Assembly (NCBI GenBank): GCA_945863035.1
Contig: CAMAZH010000024.1
Span: 1 to 41,423, forward strand
DNA length: 41,423 nucleotides
Source: Chitinophaga pinensis
GTDB lineage: Bacteria; Bacteroidota; Bacteroidia; Bacteroidales; GCA-2748055
Reading direction: 5' to 3'
Positions within the stretch are counted from its first letter, which is position 1, and each line of letters begins with the position of its first letter. The position numbers and the translations under genes are program-made. This document shows positions 6,965 to 12,890 of the stretch, piece by piece. Below the pieces are notes generated by a model that did no database searches, was not told the origin of the DNA, and saw only the letters and a program-made list of their open reading frames with translations.

Positions 6965-7022
6965 AGGTGACGGGTGCTGCCCTGAGCCTGTCGAAGGGCG
7001 CTGCCCTGAGCCTGTCGAAGGG
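6965..7022 (+). repeat. Dispersed GC-rich repeat, left copy plus a partial tandem copy
   Basis: Bases 6965-6998 contain CCTGAGCCTGTCGAAGGG preceded by a 16-base GTGACGGG-type segment. Bases 6999-7022 repeat the last 24 bases. The same 34-base unit occurs in inverted orientation at 9910-9943 with 32 of 34 matches. Sequences of the form CCTTCGACAAGCTCAGG are widespread dispersed repeats in several bacterial phyla. Confidence 0.8.
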
Positions 7023-7124: not shown

Positions 7125-7859
7125 TTATTGTTTTATTAAATTATAAAATATTGTGTCTCCATAATTTAATGCTTCCAAATACAATTCTTTAAAGTCATTT
7201 CTAAACCTGATTGCATTCAAATCACTAAAAAAAACATCCTGTGTATTAACATAAGAATACCGACCCTTAAAAGTTGAGTCATTTATCATTGAATAAACTG
7301 AGATTGTTTTATCAGGATGGTTAATTGAATCAATTCCAAGATGATTAAAAACAGCTGTAATTGAACCATTTAATACCTCGTCTACTCTACCTTCATACTG
7401 TCCGTTATCAGTAATTTCAAATGTTGCCAACCACTTCGTGCCATCAGATTTAAGTCCTGGTCCCTTCCACTCAACTTCAAGATAATTAAAGACAGATTCT
7501 TCCTTAAATTCAATATTTATTTGTTTAATCTCTGTAAGGCTCTTATTATCAACATTTATTGTCACTTTAATTGTATAGAGACCTAATTTTAATGGTATCC
7601 AGGATATTGTATTGCCACTCTCAGATACTAAATTTAATAATTCACCTTGTTCCGTTTCAATTTCCCAATCGTAAGAATCTATGGTAACTTCTTTCCCATC
7701 TATAATTGCTTCTGCAATTACAGTATTAGTTATAGTGTCTAACAGATAAGGCGAAATTGGAGAAGTAGTAACAGATGGATTAACAATTTCAATTTTCTTT
7801 TCACAGCCTATTGCAAAAAGCAATAAGAAAACGGTAAATAGAGCAAATGATTTTTTCAT
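7125..7859 (-). CDS. Predicted lipoprotein with a PKD/Ig-like segment, function unknown
   Basis: The 244-residue protein has a lipoprotein signal: MKKSFALFTVFLLLFAIGC, with Cys19 in an AIGC lipobox followed by EKK. The middle (about 35-120) reads like a PKD/Ig-like beta-sandwich, with YDWEIETEQGELLNLV, ISWIPLKLGLYTIKVTINV and a closing INIEF strand. The C-terminal half (WLATFEITDNGQYEGRVDEV onward) gives no family I recognise. Codon choice is more AT-rich than in the core genes, and it stands alone in the accessory segment. Its 48-nt leader is nearly identical to that of the flavoprotein gene at 13102. The location is probably the outer-membrane periplasmic or surface leaflet. Confidence 0.75.
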   Translation of the reverse strand: MKKSFALFTVFLLLFAIGCEKKIEIVNPSVTTSPISPYLLDTITNTVIAEAIIDGKEVTIDSYDWEIETEQGELLNLVSESGNTISWIPLKLGLYTIKVTINVDNKSLTEIKQINIEFKEESVFNYLEVEWKGPGLKSDGTKWLATFEITDNGQYEGRVDEVLNGSITAVFNHLGIDSINHPDKTISVYSMINDSTFKGRYSYVNTQDVFFSDLNAIRFRNDFKELYLEALNYGDTIFYNLIKQ

Positions 7860-7904
7860 TCGATAATAGTTTAGTTAATTAATTGGTCTCATGGAACTCC
7901 CATG
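7857..7904 (-). promoter_or_regulatory. Shared palindromic leader, copy A (before the lipoprotein gene)
   Basis: Read on the minus strand, this segment begins CATGGGAGTTCCATGAGA, continues through CCAATTAATTAAC and TAAACTATTATCGA, and ends with the lipoprotein ATG. It aligns to 13058-13104 on the plus strand at about 43 of 48 positions with a single 1-nt gap, and both copies end at a start codon. The core CATGGGAGTTCCATG is a near-palindrome. Confidence 0.7.
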
Positions 7905-8315
7905 TTGCTGATATTGCTGATGCTGTTATCCTTGAGTTTGTGTTTGCATAACAGCGGTGTTTCATAACAAGTAGCTTCTAGTATTTGAATTAATAATACT
8001 GCTGTGGAATCCATATAATCCTGTCCATCCTGAAAATCATTTAATCCTGTTCAGACACTTAATCCTATACCAGACAACGTGTATTCGTTTTCGACTTGAT
8101 ACAGTGGCACTTCCTATCATAAAAGTAGAAATTAATCGGATTGTTTTTACCGGTATTTATTTAGAATCAGAATAAATTACATGAAAAAGTTAGGTAATTT
8201 ACCCTTTGCTGCCTCTATTATTATGGGGAAAAATATTTTATCCTCATGTGGTAAAAAAAATGTCCGCTCTGATTTTGGCAAATGAGCAAGCTATCCTTAA
8301 ATAGGCCTGAAAATA
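7905..8315. other. Intergenic stretch with no recognised gene
   Basis: AT-rich sequence without a plausible coding frame. It contains direct repeats of AATCCTGT(C/T)CA at about 8017 and 8043, of a type often seen in Bacteroidota intergenic DNA. No promoter-like element in the right place for the lipoprotein gene was found. Confidence 0.5.
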
Positions 8316-8748
8316 TTGAAATAGGCCCCATATCTTTAAAAGAAGTGCCTAATTATTAAAAGAGACGGCATATTATAAAAAGAGACGGCATATTATTAAA
8401 AGAGACGGCATATTATTAAAAGAGATGCCTAATTATTAAAAGAGACCGCGAAAATATTAAAAGAGACGCCATAATTATTAAAAGAGCCCGCAAAAATATT
8501 AATAGAGACGCCATAATTATTAAAAGAGACCGCAAAAATATTAATAGAGACGCCATAATTATTAAAAGAGACCGCGAAAATATTAAAAGAGACGCCATAT
8601 TATTAAAAGAGGCTGCGAAATTATTAAAAGAGACGCCTAAATTATTAAAAGAGACTGCAAAATTATTAAAAGAGATGCCCATATTATTAAAAGAGCTCCG
8701 AAAATATTGAAAGTGCAACGTATAGAATTGAAATTGTCCGTGATATCT
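8316..8748. repeat. Degenerate 20-21-bp tandem repeat array (minisatellite), about 20 units
   Basis: The unit is TTAAAAGAGACGCCATAATTA and variants. Eighteen well-conserved units run from 8336 to 8706: five of 20 bp first, then mostly 21 bp, with 20-bp units at 8583 and 8687. More decayed units lie on both sides (8316-8335, 8707-8727, 8728-8748). Between 8436 and 8582 two subtypes alternate, one ending GACGCCATAATTA and one GACCGCAAAAATA, giving a 42-bp higher-order period. On the plus strand some units read LLKETAK; on the minus strand they read SFNNFAV. There are no spacers, so it is not a CRISPR array. Confidence 0.92.
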
Positions 8749-8850
8749 TTAATATCCTAAAACGCACCAACCACATGCCTTTAGCTCTGAGTCTATGAAT
8801 TCAGCTCTTGTTTCCGCTTCGTTTATTTCGTTTCTATTAGTATTGTTACT

Positions 8851-8902
8851 TGGGACATTTGCGACTTCGTGGGAAATTGTCGCCCGAGTCGCATGTGTCC
8901 CA
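8851..8902. repeat. Long imperfect hairpin
   Basis: TGGGACATTTGCGACT (8851-8866) and AGTCGCATGTGTCCCA (8887-8902) are inverted complements at 14 of 16 positions. They enclose a 20-nt loop that itself has GGG and CCC able to pair. It lies just past the stop codon of the broken four-helix-bundle gene (minus strand) and could be its old terminator or an independent palindromic repeat. Confidence 0.65.
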
Positions 8903-8909
8903 CAAATGG

Positions 8910-9488
8910 CTATTTTTTCTTATTTCTCTCGTCAATTCTGGCTTTTGTCATTCTTTCTCTTAAGCCACCTTCTTTTACAAAAGCAATTTCCAATTGCTTT
9001 ATCTGCTGCTTCAGGAGATAAGTGGTGATTTTAATCAAAGTGATCATCGTATTGGCACAAATTTCCGGGCTTTCGTGCTCAATGGCTTTTTTGAAGGTTT
9101 CGTAAGAGGGATTGGGTACACTTTTGTTGAGTTCTCGAAGCCTTACAACTAATCAATGTTCTTTATCCCAAAGAGGTAGCTTTTGAGTTCTTAAGAAATC
9201 TTCGTAATCAATTTGCAGCTCCTCCAAACTGGCACGAGCAACATTGGTAAGCTTTATTTCTGTTTCTTTCGAAGTGGCTGACGCCATACTTCCTTCTGCA
9301 ATGTTTTGTTTGCCGCTGCGGGCAGCTTGAACCATTTGTCCAACAGTGCGATCGTATTTGTTAAAAAAACGATTGGTAAAATATACTGTGCCATCATATA
9401 TGATTTCCGCTTTCTGAAAGCTGAATAGATTGCGGTAACCACCATGAGTGGGGATGAAGCCTTGTGTATTTTTTTCTTTATCGCTCAT
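8910..9488 (-). pseudogene. Four-helix-bundle (S23/IVS-type) protein gene, broken by an in-frame TGA
   Basis: The start is the ATG at 9488, overlapping by one base the TAA that ends the hsdS remnant. The first 111 codons (MSDKEKNTQGFIPTHGG onward, with TVGQMVQAARSGKQNIAEGS and LEELQIDYEDFLRTQKLPLW) match a family often encoded beside hsdS. A TGA at 9155-9153 ends this frame after WDKEH. The same frame then continues for 80 sense codons (RLRELNKSVPNPSYETFKKA, ESPEICANTMITLIK, GGLRERMTKARIDERN) to a TAG at 8912-8910. The second half is clearly the missing C-terminus, so a single nonsense change, for example CGA to TGA, explains the break. Either a pseudogene or a truncated 111-residue product. 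Confidence 0.85.
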
Positions 9489-9780
9489 TATATGATAATC
9501 GCTTTTTGAGTTTCCAATTCTCCAACAAACGTCTTTTGCAACAAACTCTTTTCCAACTCTTCCAACTTTAAATGTTTTTGCTGACAAATAGCTTCTAATC
9601 TTTTAGTTCCGGCTCGTAGGGCATCTAATTGGTGAGCGATGGCTTGTTGATCATTTATTGGTGGTAAAGGAAAACAAACATTTTAAATTTTTATTAATCT
9701 TGTATTTGCTGCACCATTGATATAACCAAGAAAATTTATATATCCAACAATAATAGCCACCACTCCAAATCTCAGTACAA
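9488..9780 (-). pseudogene. hsdS: Remnant of a type I restriction specificity subunit (C-terminal part)
   Basis: On the minus strand, bases 9682-9488 encode a classic HsdS C-terminus: FPLPPINDQQAIAHQLDALR, then an amphipathic helix ending LEELEKSLLQKTFVGELE. The same frame continues upstream through an in-frame TAA (9685-9683) into YINFLGYINGAANTRLIKI, which is the expected preceding region. Further upstream the frame is lost: no N-terminal target-recognition domain, hsdM or hsdR is present within the window. The gene is therefore a dead fragment of at most about 100 codons. Its TAA overlaps the start codon of the four-helix-bundle gene, a normal operon layout for intact type I systems. Confidence 0.85.
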
Positions 9781-9909
9781 TTTACAAAAATCCAACTAAC
9801 TATTAAAAGTAAACCTTTATTTTTATTTCCGGCCAGTTCCGGAAGGAAAATTCAAACAGCAAATTGAAACCATCTTTCAAAAGCTCCGATGGGCGATCAA
9901 CCCCGTCAC
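9781..9909. other. Junction between restriction remnant and flanking repeat
   Basis: No intact gene. The minus strand may carry further decayed hsdS sequence, but I cannot find a frame I would defend. It joins directly to the GC-rich repeat at 9910. Confidence 0.4.
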
Positions 9910-9943
9910 CCCTTCGACAAGCTCAGGGCAGCGCCCGTCACCT
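9910..9943 (-). repeat. Dispersed GC-rich repeat, right copy (inverted relative to 6965)
   Basis: Its reverse complement matches 6965-6998 at 32 of 34 bases and contains CCTGAGCTTGTCGAAGGG. It is followed by a run of GTCACC units (about 9937-9966). Together with the left copy it brackets the accessory segment. Confidence 0.8.
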
Positions 9944-10037
9944 CGTCACCTCATCACCCCGTCACCTCATTTTCAATCCCCAATTACCCAATAATTTGAT
10001 ATTTTCGTATCTTCACTTTTTTTTAAGCCAATCAGAA

Positions 10038-12890
10038 ATGAGCAGAAGTAAAAAACAACTTAAGGAAACATCCATTCCAATTGATAAAAACCTATACTTC
10101 AGGTTTATTTTCACCATTGGGAAATGCCGGGTTGAAAACCTTAAAGTGCTTGGCGAGTCTGTTTCCCGTATCAAAAAGGAGTTTCTCGACCAGTTGGATA
10201 TTATCATTATTGACTCCCACAACAGCCAGGCTGCAAACCTCATTGCCGATTCTCAAAACGAACTGGGCACTCTTGTCGCTCCCAATATAAAAATACTTGG
10301 AAACGATTCCCTCCCGGATGCAGGAGAAATCCCCCGAACAAAAAGCAGCCTGAGCGTTTGGCTGAGTCTCGAGAGATTGATAAGCCCTATTAATTTCAAC
10401 GACTTTTTCCGTGTTGGAATTGCACCTCCCCCCGATACCGAATATTACCTTCTAAACTGGGACGACAAAACATCATCGGCTTCGGCCGGATGGGTTCTTT
10501 CTGCCTGCACCTCGGATTTCCTCCTTGCCCGTCCGGTTTTTTCAAAACAACCAGACCTCGCCGATTACTCATGGTACCTTAAAAATAACAATCTTACGCA
10601 AACTCCCCTGGCGATTCAGCAATCCACACCCTACCAGTCTTCAGGCATTCTCAAAAGCCTACAGCTTAAGCCCCTTGGGAACATAAGGCGTTGGATGGAC
10701 TGGAACATCAGCAGCGTTTTCAGGAAACAGACCCCCGCAGAAATCCTGTCAACCTCCTCAAACCCGCCCTACAGCAGACTGCTTTTCTTTCTTATTGCAG
10801 TACTCTCCCTGATTATCCTACCTCTGATCAGCTATAATGCAGGGATTTCCGGAGACGAGGAAAAACATTACATGCAGGCTGAGAAAGTCTACAATTATTT
10901 TGCAACCGACGGGAAAGACACGACTTCACTCAGCGACGAGAAGTACAAGCTTAACTATTACGGGCAGTCGTTTGACCTGTTCACCTATGTGGTAATCAAA
11001 AAGCTCAATATCGAAAACGTCTATGAAGCGCGGCATGTTATGAATGGCGCCGTGGGTGCGTTTGCTGTTATCTGCAGCGGGTTGCTTGCCCGCATTCTGA
11101 TGGGGAATTTCGCCGGTATCATTACCATGCTGCTTTTGCTCTTTTCACCCGGTTTCCTCGGTCATGCAATGAACAATCCCCTGGATATCCCCTTTGCTTT
11201 CGGATATATATTCACCCTGCTCCAGCTGGTAAGATTTCTGAAGAGACTTCCAGCAATTAACTATGGAATTGCTATTCTTATTACCCTGGGAATTGCTTTC
11301 ACAATAAGCATCAGAATTGGCGGACTATTGCTGATTCCTTATCTTTTCATGTTCAGTGGGCTGTACCTCCTTTTGATCCCAATGCCCTGGAAAAATTTCA
11401 CCAAACCCTGGTTTCAGCTTGCCGGGAAAGGCTTTCTGGTTCTTTCCGGAATTACAATTGCCTCCTATTTTCTAAGCCTTCTGCCCTGGCCCTACGCACT
11501 TCAAAGCCCCCTTAAAAATCCTTTTGAAGCGATGAGGATTATGGAAAACATCACGGTCTCCCTGAGGGTGATGTTCGAGGGGAAAATAATCTGGTCCGAC
11601 AGTCTGCCGGCCTCCTATATTCCGAAAAGCATTTTTCTGTCGATCCCAATTATGGTTATGGCCGGGTTTTTAATGGGCAGCATGCTTATCCGAAAAAGGC
11701 AAAACACCTTCTGGATCTTTCTTTTGTTCTTCGTGGTTGTGTTCCCTGTAGCCTACATTATTTACAAAGAGTCGAATGTTTATGGGGCATGGAGACACCT
11801 GCTGTTTATTTATCCACCCATGGTGGTTATGGCCGGAATCGGGATGCAATCGGTATTCAAAGCGTGGGGAAACAAATATTACCGGATTGCCGTCCTGGTG
11901 GTTTTCATCGGATCCATGATAAACCCTGCCGCTCATATCCTCAGGAATTACCCTAACCAATACATCTATTTTAACGAAATTGCCGGGGGAGTAAAAAAAG
12001 CCTACAAAAAATACGAGACCGACTATTATATGGTCAGCCTGAAACCCGGCACCGAATGGATAATTGAAAACATTGTGAAAAAGTCCGGTGCCGACTCCCT
12101 AAATCCCATCCGTATTGTTTCGAACGCACCCTCCGATATCATGAATTACTATTTCAGGGACTATAAAGACAAGGTAAGACTTCCCTATACAAGGTATTAC
12201 GATCGGGGATTGTACGACTGGGATTACGCGATTTTCTTCTGCAATTACATTGATCCCTATCAGATTACCCATAATATCTGGCCCCCGAAAAACACGATTT
12301 ACACCGTTACTCTTGACGGGGTTAAAATTTGTGCCGTGGTGAAGAGAGAAAACAAAAACGACCACTACGGGTTTGAAATGCTCAATGACGCTATCCGGTT
12401 ACGCGACAATGCCAAACTCGATGAATCCGTTCGATTGATGGAAAACGCTCTGGAATACGACAAGCATAATGAAATCACCTACCTCAATATTGCCCAGGCA
12501 TATATTCTGAGGGAGGAATTCGACCAAGCCCGAAAAAAACTCAATATTCTCCTTGGTTTCTACCCGAACTATGAAAAAGCTATTAACCTGATCGGTTATT
12601 CTTATCTCAATGAAGGCGAAATTTATAGCGACAAAGCCAAAATCGAAAGGGCAATATCCCTCTTTAATGAAACCATTCGGATAAATTTCAAATTCGCAGC
12701 CGCTTATCATAATCTGGGCCTTGCCCATATGATAAAGGGCGACGACACCGCAGCCTTCAACTATTTTCAGAAGTCTGTCGATAATAATCCTGTTGCCCGC
12801 GATTCATACTATATGATGGCAAATATCATCGAAAAAAGGGGTGATCCGCAACAAGCCAGAGAAATCCGCGAATATGCAAGCAGATTGTAA
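10038..12890 (+). CDS. GT-C (GT39/ArnT-like) glycosyltransferase with an unknown N-terminal domain and C-terminal TPRs
   Basis: The 950-residue protein has three parts. Residues 1-245 form a soluble region of no family I recognise (LDIIIIDSHNSQAANLI, then GIAPPPDTEYYLLNWDD). Residues 246 to about 660 are a polytopic GT-C core: a first helix, the acidic loop ISGDEEKHY (270-278) and SPGFLGHAMNNPLDIP (370-385), as in enzymes that transfer sugars from polyprenyl-phosphate donors in the periplasm. After a soluble stretch, about 780-945 contains TPR-like repeats (ITYLNIAQAYILREEFDQA, AAAYHNLGLAHMIKGD). I use the ATG at 10038; a longer in-frame start at 9864 would translate the GC-rich repeat. Neighbours (a UGM-like flavoprotein and, further on, a sugar transferase) agree with surface glycan work. 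The acceptor is unknown. Confidence 0.8.
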   Translation: MSRSKKQLKETSIPIDKNLYFRFIFTIGKCRVENLKVLGESVSRIKKEFLDQLDIIIIDSHNSQAANLIADSQNELGTLVAPNIKILGNDSLPDAGEIPRTKSSLSVWLSLERLISPINFNDFFRVGIAPPPDTEYYLLNWDDKTSSASAGWVLSACTSDFLLARPVFSKQPDLADYSWYLKNNNLTQTPLAIQQSTPYQSSGILKSLQLKPLGNIRRWMDWNISSVFRKQTPAEILSTSSNPPYSRLLFFLIAVLSLIILPLISYNAGISGDEEKHYMQAEKVYNYFATDGKDTTSLSDEKYKLNYYGQSFDLFTYVVIKKLNIENVYEARHVMNGAVGAFAVICSGLLARILMGNFAGIITMLLLLFSPGFLGHAMNNPLDIPFAFGYIFTLLQLVRFLKRLPAINYGIAILITLGIAFTISIRIGGLLLIPYLFMFSGLYLLLIPMPWKNFTKPWFQLAGKGFLVLSGITIASYFLSLLPWPYALQSPLKNPFEAMRIMENITVSLRVMFEGKIIWSDSLPASYIPKSIFLSIPIMVMAGFLMGSMLIRKRQNTFWIFLLFFVVVFPVAYIIYKESNVYGAWRHLLFIYPPMVVMAGIGMQSVFKAWGNKYYRIAVLVVFIGSMINPAAHILRNYPNQYIYFNEIAGGVKKAYKKYETDYYMVSLKPGTEWIIENIVKKSGADSLNPIRIVSNAPSDIMNYYFRDYKDKVRLPYTRYYDRGLYDWDYAIFFCNYIDPYQITHNIWPPKNTIYTVTLDGVKICAVVKRENKNDHYGFEMLNDAIRLRDNAKLDESVRLMENALEYDKHNEITYLNIAQAYILREEFDQARKKLNILLGFYPNYEKAINLIGYSYLNEGEIYSDKAKIERAISLFNETIRINFKFAAAYHNLGLAHMIKGDDTAAFNYFQKSVDNNPVARDSYYMMANIIEKRGDPQQAREIREYASRL

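Follow-up and report, generated by a model that had tools for sequence, protein, structure and literature searches.

A degenerate 20/21-bp minisatellite in a Bacteroidales genome as a probable copy of a small dispersed intergenic element

How does a degenerate array of 20- and 21-bp units come to lie between two genes of a Bacteroidales genome, and is it a gene, a regulatory sequence or DNA that moves? The question is raised by the window, the whole stretch of 41,423 nucleotides that was analysed (contig CAMAZH010000024.1, here C24), in which a first-pass annotation had placed the array at 8316-8748. It had seen there about 20 units of 20-21 bp, 18 of them well conserved, with two subtypes alternating at 42 bp and with edges more decayed than the centre, and it had offered as readings an expanded relic of a coiled-coil gene, a variable-number locus, or a protein- or RNA-binding array with about two helical turns per unit.

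The array and its copies in the genome

The array is where it had been placed, and its units, its alternation and its decaying edges were all borne out, but it extends further: decayed units span 8297 to about 8765, and they are preceded by a leader. Wrap-around alignment to a 21-bp consensus gives 23 head-to-tail units of 18-21 bp (8297-8765), 18 of which (8336-8706) are well kept, each agreeing with at least 16 of the 21 consensus positions and all being 20 or 21 bp long. TRF finds the 21-bp period at 8336-8695 (17.4 copies, 80% matches, score 383) and, at 8336-8713, periods of 42 bp (9.2 copies, 87%, score 488) and 83 bp (4.6 copies, 87%, score 495); the maximum score in 200 dinucleotide-preserving shuffles of 7860-9150 was 72.

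Read along the plus strand, the element of about 545 bp consists of a non-repeated leader of about 75 bp (8222-8296), two decayed 5' edge units (8297-8335), five 20-bp units delimited by the consensus alignment (8336-8435), thirteen units in which two subtypes alternate (eleven of 21 bp and two of 20 bp; 8436-8706) and decayed tail units (8707-8765). Within the unit, the TTAAAAGAG block is constant and the other half is variable. From 8436 on, where units are mostly of 21 bp, ACCGCGAAAATA-like and ACGCCATAATTA-like halves alternate, and this alternation is the cause of the 42-bp period: the mean edit distance between 16 core units is 2.0 at lag 2 versus 4.0 at lag 1 (p = 0.0002 against 5000 random unit orders). 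Units are less conserved the nearer they lie to either edge (Spearman -0.50, p = 0.014).

The genome itself (4,188,772 bases in 241 contigs) contains at least three copies of this leader-array-tail block. A DNA search revealed the second, on the minus strand of another contig (C33:32715-33063). The unit profile matched 17 times with E at or below 0.01, each time on C24, C33 or a further contig, C34, in a search that scored 36 of 1864 candidates and may therefore have missed weaker copies. The third copy, at C34 33270-33319, is represented by its tail only, since the array runs off the end of the 33338-base contig. The C33 and C34 tails are 86% identical over 77 bp; both keep one extra unit where about 20 bp are absent from the C24 tail. 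No array with an 18-23-bp unit and more than 3.3 copies was present in 20 stretches of 20 kb of the genome.

Comparison of the two full copies separates what they share from what they do not. The leaders are identical in 70 of 76 alignment columns, the 5' edge units in 35 of 39 and the tails in 46 of 62 (over 8687-8746 of the window); moreover, the alignment shows a sharp outer boundary of the leader, and the leader lies at an equal distance from the array in both. Between the common edge units there are 20 units in C24 versus 16 in C33, and the inner patterns differ, the two-unit alternations not being alike: in the centre of C33, 20-bp units alternate between ATCT and ATTA over a short part only (lag test, p = 0.061). 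Conservation of the C33 units likewise falls toward the edges (Spearman -0.48, p = 0.022). The shared leader and edges, together with the differing unit number and inner pattern, suggest that the block was probably copied first and that the arrays changed later. From the shared and unshared variants, we infer that the decay of the edges predates the copying and that the centres are younger. The variable-number locus that had been proposed is supported in so far as these two paralogues of one genome are compared.

Both full copies are intergenic. The one in C24 has on its left a gene (7125-7859, minus strand) that is lipoprotein-like by our reading of its start, which reads away from the element and has no Pfam or NCBIfam match, and on its right a minus-strand gene for a four helix bundle protein (TIGR02436; 9153-9587), whose 3' end faces the element; about 65 N-terminal residues of the latter lie outside the family match. 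The C33 copy sits between two genes that diverge from it, one AMP-ligase-like by our own reading of the sequence and the other with a sub-threshold pectic lyase match. The inner side of the C34 copy lies beyond a gene ending at L287:2069, and its other side is off the contig.

Other repeats occur in the same genome. One of them, dispersed, up to about 119 bp long and unrelated to the element, has a copy at window 9733-9850 and is found in six other places; its copies come within 110 bp of the leader in C33 and about 970 bp of the tail in C24. Tandems like CGCTGCCCTGAGCCTGTCGAA, of 24 and 32 bp, occur at window 6972-7022 and on contig C7 (L252 1-151 and L253 2041-2214), and a degenerate array with 9-, 18-20- and 38-bp periods (AGTGCCTAG, AAAGTACTTTAGGCACTC) lies on contig C5 (L235 9429-9646).

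Distribution in other genomes

At E 1e-4 or less, the leader of the element was found in one of the 393 genomes of the order, its own, with two candidates scored per genome; among 41 genomes searched with the leader and flank at E 10 or less, the best value outside its own genome was E 0.0036. The array DNA matched in 5 of 100 genomes, its own included, and in the other four over 25-46 bp only. A pattern of two TTAAAAGAG blocks matched in 13 of 393 genomes, with more than one match only in its own genome and in one other, G036. The 61-position unit profile matched in 16 of 149 genomes at E 0.01 or less, its own again included, in a search limited to 36 scored candidates per genome; of the 15 others, G060 and G041 were inspected at their best place and had no such array there.

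Phages and plasmids gave no match at E 1e-5, and the leader pattern did not occur in viral contigs. A three-block unit pattern picked out six stretches in viral contigs, which by eye were unrelated. Three TTAARAGRG blocks gave at least 118 stretches in genomes of species, most of them by eye unrelated arrays that contain the motif. Taken together with the six viral ones, the stretches listed have a unit length that peaks at 21 (36 of 124) and is 18-23 in 84 of 124; a single genome contributes several of them and some lie in coding sequence, and we claim nothing from this peak. TRF was run on 40 loci (L191-L230), of which 13 are same-family orthologues, 59-70% identical, of the gene neighbouring the C33 copy, and some have flanks cut by contig ends; apart from the arrays of C24 and C33, no array with an 18-23-bp unit exceeded 2.0 copies.

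The congener G001 offers a direct comparison. Neither the array nor the unit profile has a significant match in its assembly, which is 87% complete, and the best value for the leader is E 0.47. The large gene downstream of the C24 element (window 9864-12890) is 89% identical there; upstream of it there is no array, in a contig that begins 1,675 bases upstream, so that a displaced copy further out could be missed. In the same 1,675 bases there is no similarity to the four helix bundle gene, and the DNA at this site is unrelated. The restriction of the leader to one of 393 genomes and the array-free site in G001 suggest that the element comes and goes. In the searches made, related units are nearly absent from other species, although the genome itself carries such arrays elsewhere.

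Rival readings and the origin of the element

The idea that a coiled-coil gene, its 21-bp repeat coding for heptads, has left a relic here draws on two features that had been read correctly at the outset: the plus frame of C24 reads LKETAKILKETP, a stop and then LLKEPAK and so on, i.e., LKETAK-like heptads with TAA in one subtype, and a minus-strand frame (8416-8718) is open for 100 codons. This frame is mildly unusual: 100 or more open codons in any frame arise in 39 of 2000 random unit orders, which makes it longer than in 98% of them. It has no Pfam or NCBIfam family match and was judged not to be a gene, and in C33 none of the six frames has an open run of more than 68 codons or an ORF of 80 aa or more. 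The mixture of 20- and 21-bp units, the TAA, the lack of a kept frame in C33 and the lack of a family led us to reject both a coiled-coil gene and its relic, the latter being scarcely credible; the element is not gene-like. A transcribed regulatory or RNA element, with tandem promoters or a small RNA, might account for the 16 sigma-70-like matches in 7800-9200 (versus 5.2 in shuffles), of which 12 are on the minus strand of the array, and it would have a parallel in the bidirectional promoter activity of segments of BrickBuilt, an element of Porphyromonas gingivalis (PMC4596501). Those matches are mostly one AT-rich unit repeated and were not taken as evidence for a promoter array. Moreover, Bacteroidota use a promoter type other than the sigma-70-like one. 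RNA from either strand of the C24 array folds more weakly than its shuffles (z +2.5 and +1.5), and folding with flanks gives z +2.1 for C24 and +1.1 for C33. Rfam, searched at gathering scores, has no match in the window, and 7860-9150 is free of inverted repeats of at least 14 bp. The folding speaks against the RNA-binding part of the proposed array and, with the lack of an Rfam family, excluded a structured RNA from our candidates, and we hold a transcribed element to be extremely unlikely.

Another possibility is that selection maintains an array of sites for a DNA-binding protein, each unit spanning two helical turns. The 20-21-bp period and the constant TTAAAAGAG block next to a variable half favour it; the mixing of 20- and 21-bp units, the differing unit number, the absence of the element from the congener's orthologous site and that of the leader from 392 of 393 genomes make this reading very unlikely. 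More plausible than these, although still unlikely, is a plain local minisatellite that is not mobile and that was duplicated with a little flank by illegitimate recombination. Copies are few, no inverted ends were found, and the unrelated 119-bp repeat near both C33 and C24 suggests that such intergenic sites gather repeats anyway. Against this, the leader is equally spaced in both full copies and has a sharp outer edge, and the tail recurs in a third copy.

The explanation that we consider likely is that the array belongs to a copy of a short dispersed element without a gene, whose whole block was copied before the arrays changed. The element would be non-autonomous, and its leader, array and tail would have been copied together to new intergenic sites, at least three in number, most likely in trans by a transposase, as has been proposed for BrickBuilt. 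Each array would then have been altered in length via replication slippage or unequal exchange, processes that would keep the centre uniform and leave old, decayed units at the edges. No cellular function is needed to explain such an element, which may incidentally affect the transcription of its neighbours.

Several observations count against this dispersed-element explanation: there are only three copies, the C24 alternation at 42 bp has only a weak counterpart in C33, and the open minus frame is of a length that few random unit orders attain. We identified no transposase or insertion sequence that matches the element. Terminal inverted repeats were not found either, the leader matching the reverse-complemented tail no better than shuffles in C24 (p = 0.80) or in C33 (p = 0.17), with the outer end of the tail uncertain. 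A resemblance to IS5-type ends (GAGACC..GCAAAA in one unit) occurs once in C24, is absent in C33 and was dropped.

Comparison with known repeat elements

Other dispersed arrays came to light during the searches. In G036, whose 10,415-base contig matches record DYNA01000151.1, a MAG of the same order named Paludibacter propionicigenes, there are two intergenic 21-bp arrays of TTAAAAGAGTCTCTCTGGGTG (L055 5901-6243 and L056 7173-7416), which have 45 bp of common flank on one side; the second is at a contig end, and the intact one is 97% homogeneous. They resemble the element in their 21-bp period, in having at least two copies with a shared flank, and in TTAAAAGAGTC, which is common to some C33 units, in arrays that were themselves found with TTAAAAGAG as the search pattern; in contrast, the rest of the unit and the flank are unrelated. 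The 45 bp of shared flank hint at the same anatomy as that of BrickBuilt.

A different degenerate 21-bp array is dispersed in a horse-gut Bacteroidaceae MAG (L060 and L319-L356 of G415; record JAKSLT, Horse_feces106), with 73 matching segments in about 40 places by our own grouping. There, a minus-strand arm is often followed by a plus-strand arm, which makes long imperfect inverted repeats. Of 38 places taken, 35 were tested with 15 shuffles each, the three at contig ends being omitted: 32 of the 35 gave a folding z below -2 (median -4.5), versus 6 of 28 controls placed 1.5 kb from 28 of these arrays (median -0.6). By a crude ORF count, 13 of the 35 lie between convergent genes, versus 8 of 47 other gaps of at least 100 bp. 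These arrays were reached via the TTAARAGRG motif, so the letters that they share with the C24 unit prove nothing; they are possibly more unusual than the C24 element itself. Rumen and omasum Bacteroidales MAGs (records ONNR, JAEEUA and JAFZBE) contain dispersed arrays of a 10-bp unit, GGGTTAAGAG (L061, L068, L074, L088, L099, L118, L120 and similar loci), followed in some loci by an inverted arm such as CCTTTCGAACC.

Given unit lengths of 20/21 bp here, 21 bp in G036, 21 bp in the horse-gut MAG and 23 nt in P. gingivalis, one might imagine that mobile DNA in Bacteroidales repeatedly takes the form of leader-array-tail elements whose units approach two helical turns, with a shared mechanism of spreading and a unit length set by the spacing that a host protein or transposase requires on the DNA; we regard this as improbable. 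If the wider class were real, it would contribute to intergenic variation in this order in a way so far neglected. The present findings suggest that dispersed elements bearing minisatellites are not peculiar to Porphyromonas. Arrays of this kind break assemblies and yield spurious open frames, and two full copies with old edges in common and young centres that differ would constitute a small natural record of how bacterial arrays grow.

The closest known system is BrickBuilt, described in PMC4596501 as a MITE with an internal 23-nt minisatellite, made up of a leader, the array and a tail, and present in 19 intergenic copies, with assembly gaps at the sites, a target-site duplication in three of the four complete copies, terminal inverted repeats that resemble the ends of IS5-family elements, and predicted long stem-loops. 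The likeness lies in the leader, the spacerless head-to-tail array and the tail, in the several intergenic copies per genome with a unit number that varies between them, in the confinement to one species or near it, and in the coincidence of arrays with assembly breaks. The differences lie in a 20/21-bp unit of a sequence other than the published 23-nt consensus, in at least three copies rather than 19, and in the lack of inverted ends and of a tendency to form stem-loops (z being positive here); the published 12-nt BrickBuilt ends do not occur exactly in the 460,812 bases of the genome that were searched for them (about 1/9 of it, overlaps included). Since three of the tested features (unit, inverted ends and stem-loops) failed, we call the element neither BrickBuilt nor a MITE.

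MITE464/PgRS of P. gingivalis, which section 7 of PMC4596501 covers, is likewise dispersed and has internal tandem repeats, and the repetitive flanks of its arrays may be compared to the decayed edges here; it differs in the length (41 nt) and sequence of its unit and in its reported inverted ends. In the parts consulted of the open-licence literature, including PMC5771137, no report of the present 20/21-bp unit was recognised. Further afield, there is a likeness in that dispersed intergenic tandem arrays with a variable unit number are also found in another phylum. These are the mycobacterial interspersed repetitive units (MIRU-VNTR), whose units are longer. We file the C24 element under the broad kind of dispersed intergenic minisatellite elements, of which it is a fairly ordinary example.
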